Below, piece after piece: positions 38,540-45,967 of a stretch of DNA of 64,000 nt. Origin of the DNA: Candidatus Zixiibacteriota bacterium (GTDB lineage Bacteria > Zixibacteria > MSB-5A5 > GN15 > FEB-12); the NCBI GenBank assembly GCA_022571845.1, contig JACZXB010000006.1, positions 62,001-126,000 of the forward strand. Reading direction: 5' to 3'. A program made the position numbers and the translations under genes. Each line of letters starts with the position of its first letter. Position 1 is the stretch's first letter. A model generated the notes under the pieces. It searched no databases. It was not told the DNA's origin and saw nothing but the letters and a program-made list of their open reading frames with translations.

Positions 38540-39763
38540 TTACAAACTTGCTTCTATCATCTCCCAGTTTATTTCTTTGTTGATATTAATTTTAGGAAGC
38601 TCAACTTTTTTTGAATCTTTGTATTTTTGTCCCGAAGCAGTATTAAAGATCAGAATTCTATCATGTGGTTGAATCCAATTCTCGCTTTTCAAATGTTCCA
38701 GCGCACCCACGCAAGCGGCTGTCTCAGGACAAATTGACAGGCCGGTTTTCTCAGCTGAAATTTTCGTCCAATCGTCAATCATCTGTTCGTCAACGGCTAT
38801 CGCTGTGCCATTGCTTTCTTTGAGTGCATCCAAAATCATAAAGTCGCCAATCGCAGCAGGCACTCTTATACCCCAGGCTATTGTCTTTGCATTTTGAAAG
38901 GGCTGGGCGAATCGTTCTCCGCTTTTGAAAGCGTCTACTATCGGGCAGCAGCCATCTGACTGAACCGCTACCATTCTTGGCATTATATCAGATTCCAGCC
39001 AGCCTAATTCTCTAAGTTCTTTGAACGCTTTCCACATACCAATCAATCCGGTACCTCCTCCGGTAGGATAGAGAATGACATCAGGCAGTTTCCAGTCAAA
39101 CTGCTGGGCCAACTCCAGCCCCATAGTTTTTTTGCCTTCGATCCGATATGGTTCCTTTAGAGTGGACAGATCAAAGCAATTCAGCTTTTCTTTTGCCACG
39201 TCTGCTAATTTCCCGCAATCGTTAATCAGTCCGTTCACCAAAAAAGCCGAAGCACCATATAATTGTATCTCATATTGATTTGCGGTCGGCGTATCTTCCG
39301 GCATAAACACCAGGCATCTTATGTTAGCCTGCTGGGCATAGGCAGCGGCAGCTCCGCCTGCATTTCCTGCAGTGGGCAGAGCGATTCTCTTTACTCCAAA
39401 GTGCGCTGCCATGGTAATGGCCATTGCCATCCCGCGGCTCTTAAAACTTCCGGTAGGCAGTGTCGATTCATCTTTAATCCAAATGTTTCTGTGCCCAGTC
39501 TGCTTTTTGAGAGATTCTGTTTTTATTAGCCGGGTAGAGCGTTCATTAAGTGTGATTATTCTGGCGTTTTTTGGCACAGGCAAAAGTTCGCGCCAGCGCC
39601 AGATGTCGGCCGGTCTATCTAAGAGGTCGTCTTTGGTAACGGCAGAGGCAATTTTTTCCAGGTCATAGCGCACCCAGAGTGGTCTGTCTTGGTGGGTAGT
39701 CTGGAGTTCATTAGCCCGAAATTTGGTGCCGTCTAATGCGCTTTCGAGTTCTGTTACAAACAT
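38540..39763 (-). CDS. thrC: Threonine synthase
   Basis: A 407-residue PLP-dependent enzyme that converts O-phosphohomoserine to threonine. The PLP lysine is Lys108 in LPTGSFKSRGM. The substrate/cofactor loop PTAGNAGGAAAAYA and the phosphate-binding PTGGGTGLIGMWKAF are both present. The N-terminal LWVRYDLEKI...WRWRELLPV is typical of the thrC branch rather than threonine dehydratase or cysteate synthase, although cysteate synthases are close relatives. No hom or thrB gene is adjacent. It starts 28 bases after the GlpX-like gene ends, so the two are likely co-transcribed. Confidence 0.88.
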   Translation of the reverse strand: MFVTELESALDGTKFRANELQTTHQDRPLWVRYDLEKIASAVTKDDLLDRPADIWRWRELLPVPKNARIITLNERSTRLIKTESLKKQTGHRNIWIKDESTLPTGSFKSRGMAMAITMAAHFGVKRIALPTAGNAGGAAAAYAQQANIRCLVFMPEDTPTANQYEIQLYGASAFLVNGLINDCGKLADVAKEKLNCFDLSTLKEPYRIEGKKTMGLELAQQFDWKLPDVILYPTGGGTGLIGMWKAFKELRELGWLESDIMPRMVAVQSDGCCPIVDAFKSGERFAQPFQNAKTIAWGIRVPAAIGDFMILDALKESNGTAIAVDEQMIDDWTKISAEKTGLSICPETAACVGALEHLKSENWIQPHDRILIFNTASGQKYKDSKKVELPKININKEINWEMIEASL

Positions 39764-39791: not shown

Positions 39792-41468
39792 TCAGTCGCT
39801 GCTGACGAAAAAATCAGCCGCCAGCCGCTCGGTAATTTCGATAATTTTTCGATCAAGTTCGCCCAGCGCGCCGCGCTCGATTAAACCATCAACTGCTTTG
39901 TGGAGCAGCACATACTTATCTCTAATCGGTATCAGCGCGGGATAATATTCATTGATAAAAAACAGCCGAAAACTCTTAAATTCAACCGGGTCATTAAGCA
40001 TTCTGCCGATAGTTTTTTCCAGTTCGTCATCGCTAAGATTAAAAAGTAACTCTTTGGTAGAGCGCATCAGAAAGCGGGTCTTATCTACACCTTCGGTACA
40101 CCTAAAACTCATTTTCCACCAGGTCATAACGCCAAAGGAAGTTACAGCCAGGACATTAACATCGATTTTGTTTTCCTTTTCATTGATGGTGACGCCCTTC
40201 ATAAAAGAAAAATAGAGATTGTCGGTAATACAGCCAAAGGCAGCTATGCCTCCCGCAAATGGATCTTCGAGAATATCCTGAATTGTAAAATAGGGCTTCT
40301 GCTCGAACCGTGCGTCTTGAATCATTATGTATTCATCTTCGGTAAAGTGAAACCGTTCTTTCCAGACTTCTTCAGGAGTAATATCTTTTCGGGTTAATAC
40401 GGACTGGCTGGTGAGCATGCCAATAGCCTGTCCTCCCCGCCAGATAAGTGGAAGTGCACCAACAACCCATTCGGCAGAGCCTCCAATTTCCCCTATCATA
40501 GCGTTTAAGCCGCGCCCGTTGCCAAAATTTAATCCTTCGGCGCCAAGAATTATGGCCGGGAAAAGGTCGCCGTCTTTATCATAGGGTGTTGCAACGCCGG
40601 CTTTATTAAGGGTGTCCATAGCCAGGTGGTGTCTGGGGCGATCAAGAAAGAACGAACTGATTTTTTCTATAGAACTGTAACCATAGGCTTTGGCCATTAT
40701 TTCGGCTGATTCCACAAGATTCACAAAGCGCGGATTAAATTCTTCGAAATACGCACTGGCCATCCACCTTTGAACATATATATCCGGAAGGTGGCGTTTT
40801 ACGTTTGATTCTGTAATGAATAGTGCCGTAAAACTGGAGTGTAGCCCGCTGATAGATTTGGTAGTGCCATCGATTACATCATTTCCCATTGAAAGCAGTG
40901 CCACTGGCCGCGGCATCGGCAAACCGTAGCGCTGGCGATGTTCAGCTTTGCCAAAGAGCGTGCCAACAGCAATTGTAGGATTTCCGCCGACTTCTTTACC
41001 AGGCTTTACTCTGACACCCTCAGTAATGGTCGATTCAATCAGCACTTCTTCACCGACCGGTAAAGTTTCTGTAGTGCGCTGCAAGACATCGCCCATAACC
41101 TGTGCTGCTGTTCTGTCATTGGCGCGTTTCAAGGCGTTGGCGGCTTCTATGGTTCTCTGGTCTTTGGGGATTCTGTTCAGTCCGTCCCGCCCATGAAGCG
41201 AGACGGCGATGGCTGATAGGGCTGCTGAGACTATGATCGATTGCCTGAGCTGTCTGTTTCTTAGGGCGCTAAAGTTTGATTTGTTATTAAAGCTGTCATC
41301 AAGATGGACAATCGAGAGGTTGGCAACTTCGAGATGGTAGGCTTTCAAGCAGACGCTGTGGCGGTGGTTAAATTCCAGGATGCGGTCGTGATTAAAAATG
41401 TCCTCATCTCTTTGCCCGTTGTAAATTGGGGGGGAGTCTGAAATGTCAAATCTGAGGTTATTAGTCAT
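39792..41468 (-). CDS. Divergent GlpX-like (class II fructose-1,6-bisphosphatase family) protein with long extensions
   Basis: A 558-residue protein, far longer than the about 330 of GlpX. No close relative comes to mind, but residues about 75-355 keep the order of GlpX metal and substrate motifs: ANDRTAAQVMGDVL (about 116-129), NDVIDGTTKS (Asp197, Asp200-Gly-Thr-Thr), PDIYV (228-232), DKDGD (297-301) and GEIGGSAEWVVGA with Glu333 where GlpX has its metal-binding Glu in GG(A/S)PEG. The N-terminal about 70 residues and C-terminal about 200 (WKERFHFTEDEYIM to the end) have no counterpart in GlpX. A sugar bisphosphatase or other phosphatase is inferred. It lies 28 bases upstream of thrC in the same transcription unit. 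Confidence 0.6.
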   Translation of the reverse strand: MTNNLRFDISDSPPIYNGQRDEDIFNHDRILEFNHRHSVCLKAYHLEVANLSIVHLDDSFNNKSNFSALRNRQLRQSIIVSAALSAIAVSLHGRDGLNRIPKDQRTIEAANALKRANDRTAAQVMGDVLQRTTETLPVGEEVLIESTITEGVRVKPGKEVGGNPTIAVGTLFGKAEHRQRYGLPMPRPVALLSMGNDVIDGTTKSISGLHSSFTALFITESNVKRHLPDIYVQRWMASAYFEEFNPRFVNLVESAEIMAKAYGYSSIEKISSFFLDRPRHHLAMDTLNKAGVATPYDKDGDLFPAIILGAEGLNFGNGRGLNAMIGEIGGSAEWVVGALPLIWRGGQAIGMLTSQSVLTRKDITPEEVWKERFHFTEDEYIMIQDARFEQKPYFTIQDILEDPFAGGIAAFGCITDNLYFSFMKGVTINEKENKIDVNVLAVTSFGVMTWWKMSFRCTEGVDKTRFLMRSTKELLFNLSDDELEKTIGRMLNDPVEFKSFRLFFINEYYPALIPIRDKYVLLHKAVDGLIERGALGELDRKIIEITERLAADFFVSSD

Positions 41469-41570: not shown

Positions 41571-44138
41571 CTACATTATAACAACAAATTTGCCGATTTG
41601 GGTGCTGCCGTCAGGCATTTCCACGCTCCAGTAGTACAAACTTGAGACAATCAGCTGTCTGTTGCGGGTGATTAAGTCCCACTGGGCATGGCTAAAAGTA
41701 GGGTCAGAGGGGCTGACATCGTGGAACAACTCCCGGATCAGGTCACCATCTAAAGAAAAAATTCGAATAGTGCACTTTGGCGGGAGATTGGCAAAATGAA
41801 TTGCCCGCACTTTGTCTCGGGGAAGAAAATCATCAGTGAGACCCTCGAATCCTTGTCCGCGGTAGTCAACATCATTCCGATACGGATTAGGATAGACGTA
41901 GATATCTTTGAATTCGCCGCTTAAGGCTTCGGCCGAACCTGATACGAATGCTTCTATTGTCCCCAGCGCTTTCGATGTTTCCAGGGGCTCAAGGCCGGCT
42001 TCGGGAGAACCAAAATCAAAAGCAGTCACATTCATATAGTAGGGCACAGTTGCCAGTAGATTATTTATTTCGAATTCGTACTCATAGTACTTGAAATAGC
42101 CGTCATCCGTATAGTCATCCGGGACAGGGGGAATAGAGGGCAATAGCTGATTGGGAAACTTTTTCACAATCGGCGTTGTCGACCCAAACTGGTCTGCGTT
42201 TGAACCATGTTTGGCAAAATAGAAAGCTGAGTCAGGATAAAGAGGATGAATGTAAGGGTTGCCTGGCCTGTAAATGAGCGGATCAAATAGCGAGTCTCCG
42301 CATGGATCAGGGAATTTTCCATAGGCGCATCGCAACTCTTCCAGAGTGTACGGCGCGCTGATTTCCATAATATAGCCGGGGCGCGGTTTCAGGTTTTGAT
42401 TATAGATAAATTTTCTGAAGTTTTCCCGGTCATATGATGCCACCCGGCTAAAACTGCTTTCTCGGTCGTCGCGGCCCAAGTAAACGTTGTAGCCTTCAAA
42501 ATCAATTATTCCGGAAAATATGTCTTTGGTTGTTTCCGACCTGCCACCGTTGAACCTGATTTTCAGCCCATTGACTGCCTGGCTTATCCATATTTTTGGT
42601 GCAGGAGGCGGTGAGGCTGCTTTCCAGTCAGGGACGCCATCTCCGGTATAATATGTAGTCTCAGCAACCGAAGTTACCCAAACGCTGTCAATTAAGACGG
42701 TATCCAAGACACAAACCGCGAAATCTCCGGAGTAGCCGTCGCCGTCTGTATCTACTCCCGGATTATCATATACCCAGCCGGCCCAGATGGCGTTATTCCC
42801 TAAGTCAGAGAAATCCAGGTAAGTATAGAATCTTGCCGGGTCGTTATTGGCAGCCAGGTATCTTTTCCAGACAAAGGCATTAGTATGTAATTGTTCGCCG
42901 CCAACATAAGCCAGAGGAAAGCTTACTTTGCTGCCCGGCTGCATCGTATACGGGCCGATTGACAAAAGCCATTGAATGTCACTTCCGCTGGACCAAATTC
43001 TTGCGATTGAAGGATCAGGTTGAACCCAGATACGATTGTATGGAGAGATTGAAGCGGCCCAGGCCTGGTCGTAGTCAATTTCACCGTTACTTAGCAAATG
43101 ATATTTGTTGCGATCGCCTATAGGTGTGCCAACGCCGTTTCCCATGTACCGGAAATTCTGTCTATGCTGCGGACCGAAATCAAAGCGGGAGTTGAGATTA
43201 AAAATCCACCAGTTAAACCCGAGTTTCTCATCAAAGCCGGGTTTGCCCAGGTAACGCAGGCCTACTACGTTCGGGGCAAACCAGTCTGGTCCCCAGGAAT
43301 CTCCGTTATTGTCTGCCGTCCAGGCCAGATTGAGAGCGTGAGTAATCTCACAGGCGCCTTCTTTTCTTGTGAAATTCCTGATAAATCCACCAAGGTCATC
43401 TAAGCCATCGGTCGGCTCTTTGACGGGAAGTTCCGGAGTCGGATTTACAAATTGGTAAAGGACATCCTCATGTACATCGCCGTCCATATAGATGCCGATG
43501 TAGACATTTTCAAGAATATTTTCACTAATGTTTTTGATAAAGTAATCTATCAGGACAAAATCTTCAGTATAGCCAAATGACCAGGCATAAGATGATTGGG
43601 TTACTTCTATTCCCAGAGGCCTGTGTCTCCGAAAATCTATAGCGTCAAATCCAAGGTCCGGTACACCCGATGTAAACGTGTCGGTATATATAGCGATAAA
43701 GTCCTGCTCAGAAACTGCTTCTTCGAAACCAGGAATAGACGGGTCTACGCTGCTACGATAGATTATATCTCCGAATGGAGGCACGTCGGGGTTAAATTCT
43801 CTGTTTGAAATATTTGATTCAGAGGCAGTAGAGACCAAAGTGTCACGACCAACTACAGCGCCAACCCACAGACCTGCTTTGTATAGGTGAACGGTTCTTG
43901 ACTTACGGGGGAATTCAGCCATCAGGATTTTCTTATTAGTAAAGCAATCCCTGAACGGCGGACGCCCCAGAGTGCCGAAATTAGTTATAGCAAATGACAG
44001 CTGGCCGACGCTATAAAGTCCTGAGCAGTAGACAGGTACCTCGGCCGCTAAAACGATGCTGCTTAATAATGTCATTGAAATAAAAATCAGGCGGGTTATC
44101 AAGACCATAGAACTGTTTTGTTTCGGGTTCAAGTTCAA
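41571..44138 (-). CDS. Large secreted protein with FlgD/T9SS-like C-terminal domain
   Basis: An 855-residue secreted protein; start uncertain between TTG 44138 and ATG 44108 (MVLITRLIFISMTLLSSIVLA). The signal peptide is at about 12-32 of the longer form. The body has few recognised motifs: LYKAGLWVGAVVGRDTLV near the N-terminus, FVLIDYFIKNISENILENVYIGIYMDGDV, and a long acidic beta-rich middle. The last about 110 residues (VYPNPYRNDVDYRGQG, IRIFSLDGDLIREL, LYYWSVEMPDG) resemble FlgD Ig-like or type IX secretion sorting domains. The type appears in many FCB genomes without known function (recall). It carries no dockerin-like tail. Confidence 0.75.
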   Translation of the reverse strand: MNLNPKQNSSMVLITRLIFISMTLLSSIVLAAEVPVYCSGLYSVGQLSFAITNFGTLGRPPFRDCFTNKKILMAEFPRKSRTVHLYKAGLWVGAVVGRDTLVSTASESNISNREFNPDVPPFGDIIYRSSVDPSIPGFEEAVSEQDFIAIYTDTFTSGVPDLGFDAIDFRRHRPLGIEVTQSSYAWSFGYTEDFVLIDYFIKNISENILENVYIGIYMDGDVHEDVLYQFVNPTPELPVKEPTDGLDDLGGFIRNFTRKEGACEITHALNLAWTADNNGDSWGPDWFAPNVVGLRYLGKPGFDEKLGFNWWIFNLNSRFDFGPQHRQNFRYMGNGVGTPIGDRNKYHLLSNGEIDYDQAWAASISPYNRIWVQPDPSIARIWSSGSDIQWLLSIGPYTMQPGSKVSFPLAYVGGEQLHTNAFVWKRYLAANNDPARFYTYLDFSDLGNNAIWAGWVYDNPGVDTDGDGYSGDFAVCVLDTVLIDSVWVTSVAETTYYTGDGVPDWKAASPPPAPKIWISQAVNGLKIRFNGGRSETTKDIFSGIIDFEGYNVYLGRDDRESSFSRVASYDRENFRKFIYNQNLKPRPGYIMEISAPYTLEELRCAYGKFPDPCGDSLFDPLIYRPGNPYIHPLYPDSAFYFAKHGSNADQFGSTTPIVKKFPNQLLPSIPPVPDDYTDDGYFKYYEYEFEINNLLATVPYYMNVTAFDFGSPEAGLEPLETSKALGTIEAFVSGSAEALSGEFKDIYVYPNPYRNDVDYRGQGFEGLTDDFLPRDKVRAIHFANLPPKCTIRIFSLDGDLIRELFHDVSPSDPTFSHAQWDLITRNRQLIVSSLYYWSVEMPDGSTQIGKFVVIM

Positions 44139-44220: not shown

Positions 44221-44811
44221 TCAATTGTAATACGGGTTAGCGCCGGCGGCGTGGTCTGTTATATCATGAATTTCTGTTACTTCGGGAATGGCAGCTCTGA
44301 TAGCTTTTTCGATGCCTTGTTTTAGAGTCACCGAAGCTGAGGAGCAGCCCTGACAGCCTCCGCCCAAACGAAGATAGACTGAAGTTCCTTCTACATCTGC
44401 AAGCTCCACTTTTCCGCCATGCGAAGCGATAGCCGGATTAACTTCAGTTTCAAAAAGCTTTTCAATCGTCCGGCGGATATGCTCTTCAGACGGCAACTTC
44501 TTTTTTGCCTCAGGATCTATAAGGCGTTTACCGCTAGAAATAGCTGAGCGGATAGCCACGCCAACTTTTTTGCCTATGACGGGCCATGGCTCGCTGCCAT
44601 CTTTGGCGATGGTCAAAGTATTCCCGGACACCAAAATTTCCCTCACGCCGGAAATGTCATAGAGTAATTCCAAAAGCGGCGAGCCTTTGGCAGTTTCAAT
44701 ATTACGGCAGATAAGGCTGCCATCGTTTAGAATCGGATAATCGACAACAAACTTACAGACGAACGGGTCCAGAGTAGGCTGTCCGCTAATATTTATCTCT
44801 TTTGAATCCAT
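44221..44811 (-). CDS. nfu: NifU-like Fe-S scaffold/carrier protein (Nfu)
   Basis: A 196-residue two-domain Nfu. Residues about 15-95 form the Nfu N-terminal domain (GSLICRNIETAKGSPLLELLYD, VREILVSGNTLTIAKDG). Residues about 112-190 form the NifU C-terminal domain, with cluster-binding Cys153 and Cys156 in GGGCQGCSSASVTLK. It carries [4Fe-4S] clusters to apo-proteins. It lies 16 bases downstream of the Mrp/ApbC gene in one operon, giving two late-stage Fe-S carriers together. No SUF or ISC genes are in view. Confidence 0.92.
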   Translation of the reverse strand: MDSKEINISGQPTLDPFVCKFVVDYPILNDGSLICRNIETAKGSPLLELLYDISGVREILVSGNTLTIAKDGSEPWPVIGKKVGVAIRSAISSGKRLIDPEAKKKLPSEEHIRRTIEKLFETEVNPAIASHGGKVELADVEGTSVYLRLGGGCQGCSSASVTLKQGIEKAIRAAIPEVTEIHDITDHAAGANPYYN

Positions 44812-44827
44812 CAGTTTATCTAATTAC

Positions 44828-45967
44828 CTAAATAGAAAATGACTTTTGGTCAATTTTTTCCTTTTTGCAGTCTTCACATTCGCACAAATTTCTCAGCCTA
44901 TTAAACGCAAAAATTCCGGTATTGTGCCCGTCGGAAAATGCTACCGCTAAGCCGTATCTGCCTACCGGTGAGACCGAAGTAGCCTTGATGTCAAGCGGCA
45001 CTTTTTTAGAGTCTATTAACTTTCGGCCGCTATCTTCATCAACACACTGAGCGCAGGCACAATTAAGACGCAGATAGTAGCCGGAATGCTTACTCTGATG
45101 TCCGTCCGGCCAGGTCATAATCAAGTTATTTTCAGAATCAGTCTTTATGCTTAATGGCTCATTGGCAGATATCTTAGATTCTACCTCTTCCACTCTCTTG
45201 TGAAGGACTTCTGCTAATTTTGTGAAAGCCTTGGCACTCGGCGAGTCATTTCCCTCAGCTTCAGCTACAATGGGCGTGCCGCTGTCGCTGCTTTTCATAA
45301 TGGCCGGGTCTAAAGGCAGAGAGCCCAAGAGTGGTACGTCATATTCATCTGCCAGTTTTTTTCCCCCACCCGTATCAAAAATTGCTGTTTCTTCATTGCA
45401 ATGCGAGCAGATAAAAGCCGACATATTCTCGATCACGCCCAGAATAGGCACATTGACCTGCTGGAACATTCTCAAACCCTTGCGGGCCACACCCAAAGCT
45501 ACTTCTTGCGGTGTGGTTACGATAACTGCTCCGGAGAGCTGTGCCTGCTGGGCCAGTGTCAACTGGACATCACCGGTGCCGGGGGGGAGGTCAATCAACA
45601 GAAAATCCAGCTGGCCCCATGCGACCTGTCCCAGAAACTGATGAATCATTTTCATAGCCATTGGCGCCCGCCAGATAACCGGCGATTTTTTGTCTAATAA
45701 CAGCCCCATGGAGATAAAACTGACCCCGAACTTGTTAATAGGCTTCAGGTAACCGCCGCTGGTATCAGGCCTTTCGCCTCTGGAGCCAAGCATACCGGGC
45801 TGGCTGGGACCGTAGATATCGGCATCCAGCAGACCTACTTTGTTACCGGCTTTTTGAAGCGCTACGGCCAGGTTGGTGGCAATAGTAGATTTGCCCACGC
45901 CGCCTTTGCCGCTGGCAATGGCGATAATGTATTTTATCCGTTCAATTCCTAAATCCGGCGATTTCAT
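44828..45967 (-). CDS. Mrp/ApbC-type Fe-S carrier P-loop ATPase with C-terminal DUF971 domain
   Basis: A 379-residue Mrp/NBP35 family ATPase. The deviant Walker A motif GKGGVGKST is at 20-28, the Walker B-like [11 protein letters not shown] lies at about 125, and the cluster-binding CxxC is in FICSHC. The usual N-terminal MIP18/DUF59 domain is missing. Instead about 90 C-terminal residues form a DUF971 (GBBH-like N-terminal) domain with [16 protein letters not shown] and [10 protein letters not shown], rich in cysteine. It probably assembles or transfers Fe-S clusters with the Nfu protein encoded next to it. GGAGAG precedes the start. Confidence 0.9.

Follow-up and report, generated by a model that had tools for sequence, protein, structure and literature searches.

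A long-form GlpX-type protein as the probable fructose-1,6-bisphosphatase of many Zixibacteria

Introduction

A gene for a GlpX-like phosphatase with long extensions at both ends, set beside threonine synthase (thrC), raises a simple question: which phosphorylated substrate does its product act on? The gene lies in a 64,000-nucleotide stretch of DNA from a Candidatus Zixiibacteriota bacterium, called the window here. A sequence-only reading of this DNA had taken the coupling with thrC as a sign of a substrate other than the gluconeogenic one. Fructose-1,6-bisphosphatase (FBPase) catalyses the step at which carbon is committed to gluconeogenesis, and we conclude that the protein is probably a divergent, enlarged class II-type (GlpX-like) FBPase that replaces the standard enzyme; its catalytic activity and substrate, fructose 1,6-bisphosphate (F1,6BP), are what we infer. 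No paper on these long-form GlpX-type phosphatases, for which we coined the name GXL, came up in searches of the literature.

Results

Fold, residue conservation, distribution and the exclusion of other FBPases were all computed. The 558-residue reading frame reported earlier is real, open from its ATG for 558 codons on the minus strand, and it divides as follows.

39792..41468, minus strand: GXL gene, 558-aa ORF with ATG start; PF03320 at 42 bits; in 64 of 132 Zixibacteria genomes
41268..41468, minus strand: N-terminal extension, residues 1-67, absent from canonical GlpX; the VIA alignment starts at model residue 67-76
40098..41267, minus strand: GlpX-fold catalytic domain, residues 68-457; Z 18.0, 285 residues aligned with 3big
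39795..40097, minus strand: C-terminal extension, residues 458-558, a helical domain with a beta hairpin (AlphaFold2 of this part alone)

GXL scores 42.1 bits against PF03320 (FBPase_glpX), above the gathering cut-off of 27, and all 29 relatives scanned match the same profile at E <= 0.001, so its GlpX motifs are not a product of chance. Against the TIGR00330 glpX equivalog it reaches 26.4 bits, far under the cut-off of 259.3 (NCBIfam), and we therefore do not file it as a member. Taking sequence, fold, active site and distribution together, GXL most likely carries out the FBPase reaction in the manner of a class II enzyme; it belongs to PF03320 and lies outside the glpX equivalog. A scan of genome contigs gave 40 GXL loci, nearly all in Zixibacteria metagenome-assembled genomes, with some labelled Deltaproteobacteria or Calditrichaeota; the gene is full length where contigs allow. 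One Zixibacteria chromosome (L038:8001-9674 and L055) carries a GXL gene interrupted by a single in-frame TAG stop, either an assembly error or a pseudogene.

The relatives are 53-95% identical to the window protein over 558 columns, almost without gaps. Both extensions are present in every member and are less conserved than the core: invariant columns number 3 of 67 in the N-terminal extension, the least conserved part, 10 of 98 in the C-terminal one and 60 of 160 across residues 201-360. The family is not of the single-domain class II type of about 320-350 aa, as it is 558 aa throughout and its C-terminal domain folds alone.

An AlphaFold2 model of GXL built from alignment A1 has a pTM of 0.84 and a mean pLDDT of 75.6, with pLDDT <50 at residues 149-164, 225-239, 326-360 and 372-401, active-site loops among them. 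The GlpX-like phosphatase fold proposed earlier is supported by this model. All 24 Foldseek matches at E <0.001 are class II FBPase chains (best 3e-11), and VIA-align places model residues 68-457 on residues 1-324 of E. coli GlpX, with a Z of 18.0 to 3big over 285 residues (rmsd 3.7). Only GlpX structures give Z 16-18; the next members of the superfamily, of SuhB type, reach 9.8.

The structural alignment also sets the size of the extensions. At the N-terminus it gives 67 residues, in keeping with the roughly 70 first counted. At the C-terminus the earlier figure of 200 is about twice too large, since the match extends to about residue 457, leaving a complete GlpX domain and an addition of about 101 residues. 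Modelled alone with AlphaFold2, this addition folds into helices with a beta hairpin (pLDDT 91.9, pTM 0.83). Searches of the PDB and Pfam with it gave no Foldseek E under 2, a best VIA Z of 4.2 and no consistent Pfam match; this lack of matches does not by itself establish a new fold. Oligomerisation or allosteric control is the probable role of the two extensions (67 and 101 residues), and the C-terminal domain is perhaps regulatory.

Within the catalytic domain, the predicted active site is made up of the following elements.

41115..41129, minus strand: K114...D118, predicted equivalents of E. coli Lys29 and Asp33 (metal site); invariant in 29 relatives; recovered by E-INS-i only
41019..41021, minus strand: E150, equivalent of E. 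coli Glu57 (M1 metal ligand); found by both MAFFT modes; invariant
40983..41015, minus strand: family-specific insertion, residues 152-162, after the Glu57 site; low model confidence
40863..40880, minus strand: D197-V-I-D200-G-T202, putative metal ligands and Thr nucleophile (roles from PMC10289334)
40776..40778, minus strand: Y231, equivalent of E. coli Tyr119 (PMC5892879)
40632..40640, minus strand: R277-P-R279, putative 6-phosphate anchor (role from PMC10289334); both Arg invariant
40566..40574, minus strand: D299-G300-D301, putative furanose hydroxyl binding (role from PMC10289334); invariant
40470..40484, minus strand: G329-G330-S331-A332-E333, E333 corresponding to E. coli Glu213; E333 invariant

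The GlpX motifs do occur in the order first described (D197-VIDGT-T202, P228-DIY231, DGD at 299-301 and GGSAE at 329-333), and RPR at 277-279 adds one more. Work on the M. tuberculosis and E. coli enzymes defines ten class II catalytic residues: D33, E57, D85, E88 (or D), T90, Y119, K/R164, R166, D188 and E213 (PMC5892879). GXL has an equivalent for each, namely D118, E150, D197, D/E200, T202, Y231, R277, R279, D301 and E333, with the pairing of D118 dependent on the aligner: MAFFT E-INS-i pairs it with Asp33 and L-INS-i does not. Nine of the ten positions are invariant in the 29 relatives, and position 200 is D or E. The Glu-to-Asp change at the nucleophile motif is real, as the sequence-only reading had it, but it is hardly a deviation, as Asp occupies position 200 in 25 of the 29 relatives (Glu in four) and the equivalent residue of M. 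tuberculosis GlpX is likewise Asp (PMC5892879); Asp200 therefore does not point to new chemistry. The class II F1,6BP signature consists of Arg-Pro-Arg (Lys-Pro-Arg in E. coli) and IxDGD (PMC10289334), and GXL keeps both Arg of R-x-R and the DGD, with a varying middle Pro.

Other differences near the site are particular to the family. The reported Pro-to-Ala change in GGxPEG was rightly called, and Gly to Trp accompanies it, so that GXL reads GGSAEW for GGAPEG; to these are added DGTxKS and the insertion at 152-162, in which R153, K155, P156, G157, E159, G161 and G162 are invariant. HHalign of GXL with canonical GlpX aligned only residues 197-354, and the N-terminal part of the site was therefore mapped by MAFFT. 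Around residues 84-200, the E. coli GlpX row of alignment A2 agrees with the PDB sequence.

The gene neighbourhood bears directly on the earlier proposal. Threonine synthase does stand next to GXL, on the same strand and 28 bp away:

38540..39763, minus strand: thrC (threonine synthase), 28 bp downstream of GXL; NF006050 at 538 bits, cut-off 303

This arrangement occurs only in the window's genus (three species, L002-L004, and duplicates) and at none of the other GXL loci, so a conserved thrC neighbourhood is lacking. GXL and thrC are probably co-transcribed in this genus only, not as part of a conserved system, and the adjacency is a local accident. Neighbours differ from genus to genus, with GXL itself 53-68% identical. 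L-glutamate gamma-semialdehyde dehydrogenase (P5C dehydrogenase, TIGR01236) lies near GXL at seven loci, in several lineages and in both orientations; at a deltaproteobacterial locus GXL adjoins the gene for pyruvate carboxylase subunit B. Proline degradation through P5C dehydrogenase and pyruvate carboxylase are routes that feed gluconeogenesis, and these neighbours weakly suggest growth on amino acids with gluconeogenesis. A scan for promoters and terminators found sites no more numerous than in shuffled sequence.

Other genes of the window deserve mention in their own right. Directly upstream of GXL, positions 41571-44138 encode an 855-aa protein that has no Pfam or NCBIfam match and is possibly secreted. 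Farther along, a Mrp/ApbC-type Fe-S carrier ATPase is fused to a C-terminal GBBH-like_N domain (44828-45967), and a gene for an Nfu-type scaffold (44221-44811) adjoins it.

The window's own genome (2.75 Mb, 99% complete) has GXL as its sole GlpX-family gene. Profile checks found no strong class I, no PF01950 and no class III FBPase in it; a search for a separate canonical FBPase thus came back empty, leaving GXL as the only strong candidate. The genome has a PPDK/PEP-synthase-type gene and a single phosphofructokinase (PFK; L062:576-1769, G000:C1) with GGDGT, which we take to mark the ATP-dependent type, and PKTIDND; their combination in a single PFK is a mixed ATP/PPi-type signature. It also encodes an IMPase/FBPase-like protein (L063:297-1166, G000:C1) with DPVDGSDNF and a sub-threshold PF00316 match, which is found in a few other genomes as well and is possibly a class IV enzyme.

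How GXL is distributed relative to other FBPases was scored in 132 Zixibacteria genomes, counting canonical GlpX, class I (PF00316), PF01950 and class III (PF06874). GXL alone is found in 59 genomes, another FBPase alone in 49, both in five and neither in 19 (Fisher P 7e-15; P 0.0001 by permutation within families, a scheme that takes out a large part of the effect of common descent). Within families f1, f2, f4 and f16, genera that carry GXL stand side by side with genera that carry another FBPase. In three of the five double genomes the other FBPase is a short, lower-scoring GlpX of the f1 kind. A recount without degenerate short GlpX paralogues gave three genomes with both, 61 with GXL only, 42 with another FBPase only and 26 with neither (permutation P 0.0004; genus-level P 0.0026). 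Three to five genomes have GXL together with a short GlpX. This recount left out nine f1 short GlpX, of which six were read directly as having lost Glu213 (G020, G023, G024, G061, G062, G063) and three were assumed to have done so, their motif not being recovered (G038, G040, G048); the f1 short GlpX of G017, with its Glu213 motif intact, was kept. Eight further GXL genomes were examined: in seven, four of them labelled outside Zixibacteria, no second member of the GlpX family turned up, and a class I FBPase scoring above the cut-off was absent from all eight.

Short GlpX paralogues also occur in family f1. They are about 320-330 aa long, were seen as a second GlpX in L064, L068, L069, L090, L091 and L093, and occur in some genomes with GXL and in others without. 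Their active site looks degenerate: Glu213 is lost (GGSVAGV, GGALAGV, GGAVPGV), and PDxY and DPLEGT are altered. Several nearly complete f1 genomes (G019, G050, G055 and others) have no recognised FBPase of any class. The canonical GlpX of Zixibacteria (L065-L067, L070-L072, L096-L100) reads DPLECT where E. coli has DPIEGT, with Cys for Gly before the nucleophilic Thr.

Discussion

GXL appears to be the main FBPase of about half of the Zixibacteria genomes. It would hydrolyse the 1-phosphate of F1,6BP, yielding fructose-6-phosphate (F6P) for gluconeogenesis and sugar synthesis, and would stand in for the standard enzyme across many Zixibacteria as well as in a few deltaproteobacteria. Homology suggests the following mechanism: E150, D197 and D200 would hold a divalent metal (Mn or Mg) together with D118; T202, located where a helix begins, or alternatively a metal-bound water, would attack the 1-phosphate; R277 and R279 would anchor the 6-phosphate; and the D299-G-D301 motif would hold the furanose hydroxyls. 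A more ambitious version, which we regard as possible but doubtful, makes GXL a distinct FBPase class whose own C-terminal sensor domain sets gluconeogenic flux across an uncultured phylum and which has repeatedly been swapped with canonical class II, class I and PF01950 enzymes.

Several other functions have to be weighed against this one. GXL may be a GlpX-fold phosphatase for another sugar bisphosphate, such as sedoheptulose-1,7-bisphosphate, alone or with F1,6BP; its top solved matches in both sequence and structure are the dual FBPase/SBPase of Synechocystis (3roj/3rpl), and GGSAEW, the insertion at 152-162 and DGTxKS lie near the site. Every reported F1,6BP-binding residue is kept, however, and mutual exclusion with class I, class II and PF01950 FBPases points to a shared FBPase step, which makes a different bisphosphate unlikely. 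The large extensions and the score far under the glpX equivalog cut-off would suit a regulator or structural protein that has lost FBPase activity, but such a role is very improbable for a family with invariant catalytic residues, unlike the f1 short GlpX that lose Glu213. A substrate from threonine or homoserine metabolism, as three species of the genus might suggest by having thrC 28 bp away and in the same orientation, is the least credible: thrC is not adjacent at other loci, where neighbours vary around a GXL that is 53-68% identical, and the sugar-binding residues are kept. We rejected the thrC link on the gene context in relatives; with GXL replacing the usual FBPases as well, the proposal of a different substrate tied to thrC is not supported.

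The 19-26 genomes without a recognised FBPase allow a further reading, in which GXL is a phosphatase of other function and F6P comes from a PFK running in reverse or from an IMPase-type class IV FBPase. An ATP-PFK working backwards is known in T. brucei (PMC12121924). The window's own genome has a PFK that combines GGDGT with PKTIDND, together with an IMPase/FBPase-like gene that matches PF00316 below threshold. This reading would leave the exclusion between GXL and recognised FBPases unexplained, and we consider it distinctly unlikely. Since at least 19 genomes have neither GXL nor a recognised FBPase, some different way to F6P may exist in these bacteria, such as a PFK that works reversibly or a class IV enzyme of the IMPase type.

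Read as an FBPase, GXL would account for a seemingly missing step of central metabolism: without it, about half of the Zixibacteria genomes would be scored as FBPase-less. It would also provide a clear example of one enzyme replacing another at a single metabolic step.

Among known systems, inositol monophosphatase/SuhB belongs to the same lithium-sensitive phosphatase superfamily as GXL (Z up to 9.8) and shares D-x-x-D-G-T, but only about 140 residues align, the C-terminal half of GlpX is absent from SuhB and, to our knowledge, the SuhB family lacks the R-x-R/DGD fingerprint. Class II GlpX (E. coli 3d1r, M. tuberculosis 6ayu/7txb, F. tularensis 7txg) has in common with GXL the fold of residues 68-457, the catalytic residues and the F1,6BP fingerprint; GXL differs in being about 15% identical in the structural alignment, in adding 67 N-terminal and 101 C-terminal residues and the insertion at 152-162, in reading GGSAEW for GGAPEG and in falling under the TIGR00330 cut-off. 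The cyanobacterial dual FBPase/SBPases (Synechocystis 3roj/3rpl, T. elongatus 5a5l) are its best Foldseek and sequence matches and share R-x-R and DGD. Their C-terminus is longer than that of the E. coli enzyme and forms an AMP site (PMC5892879), whereas the C-terminal part of GXL forms a folded domain of its own, about 100 residues in size.
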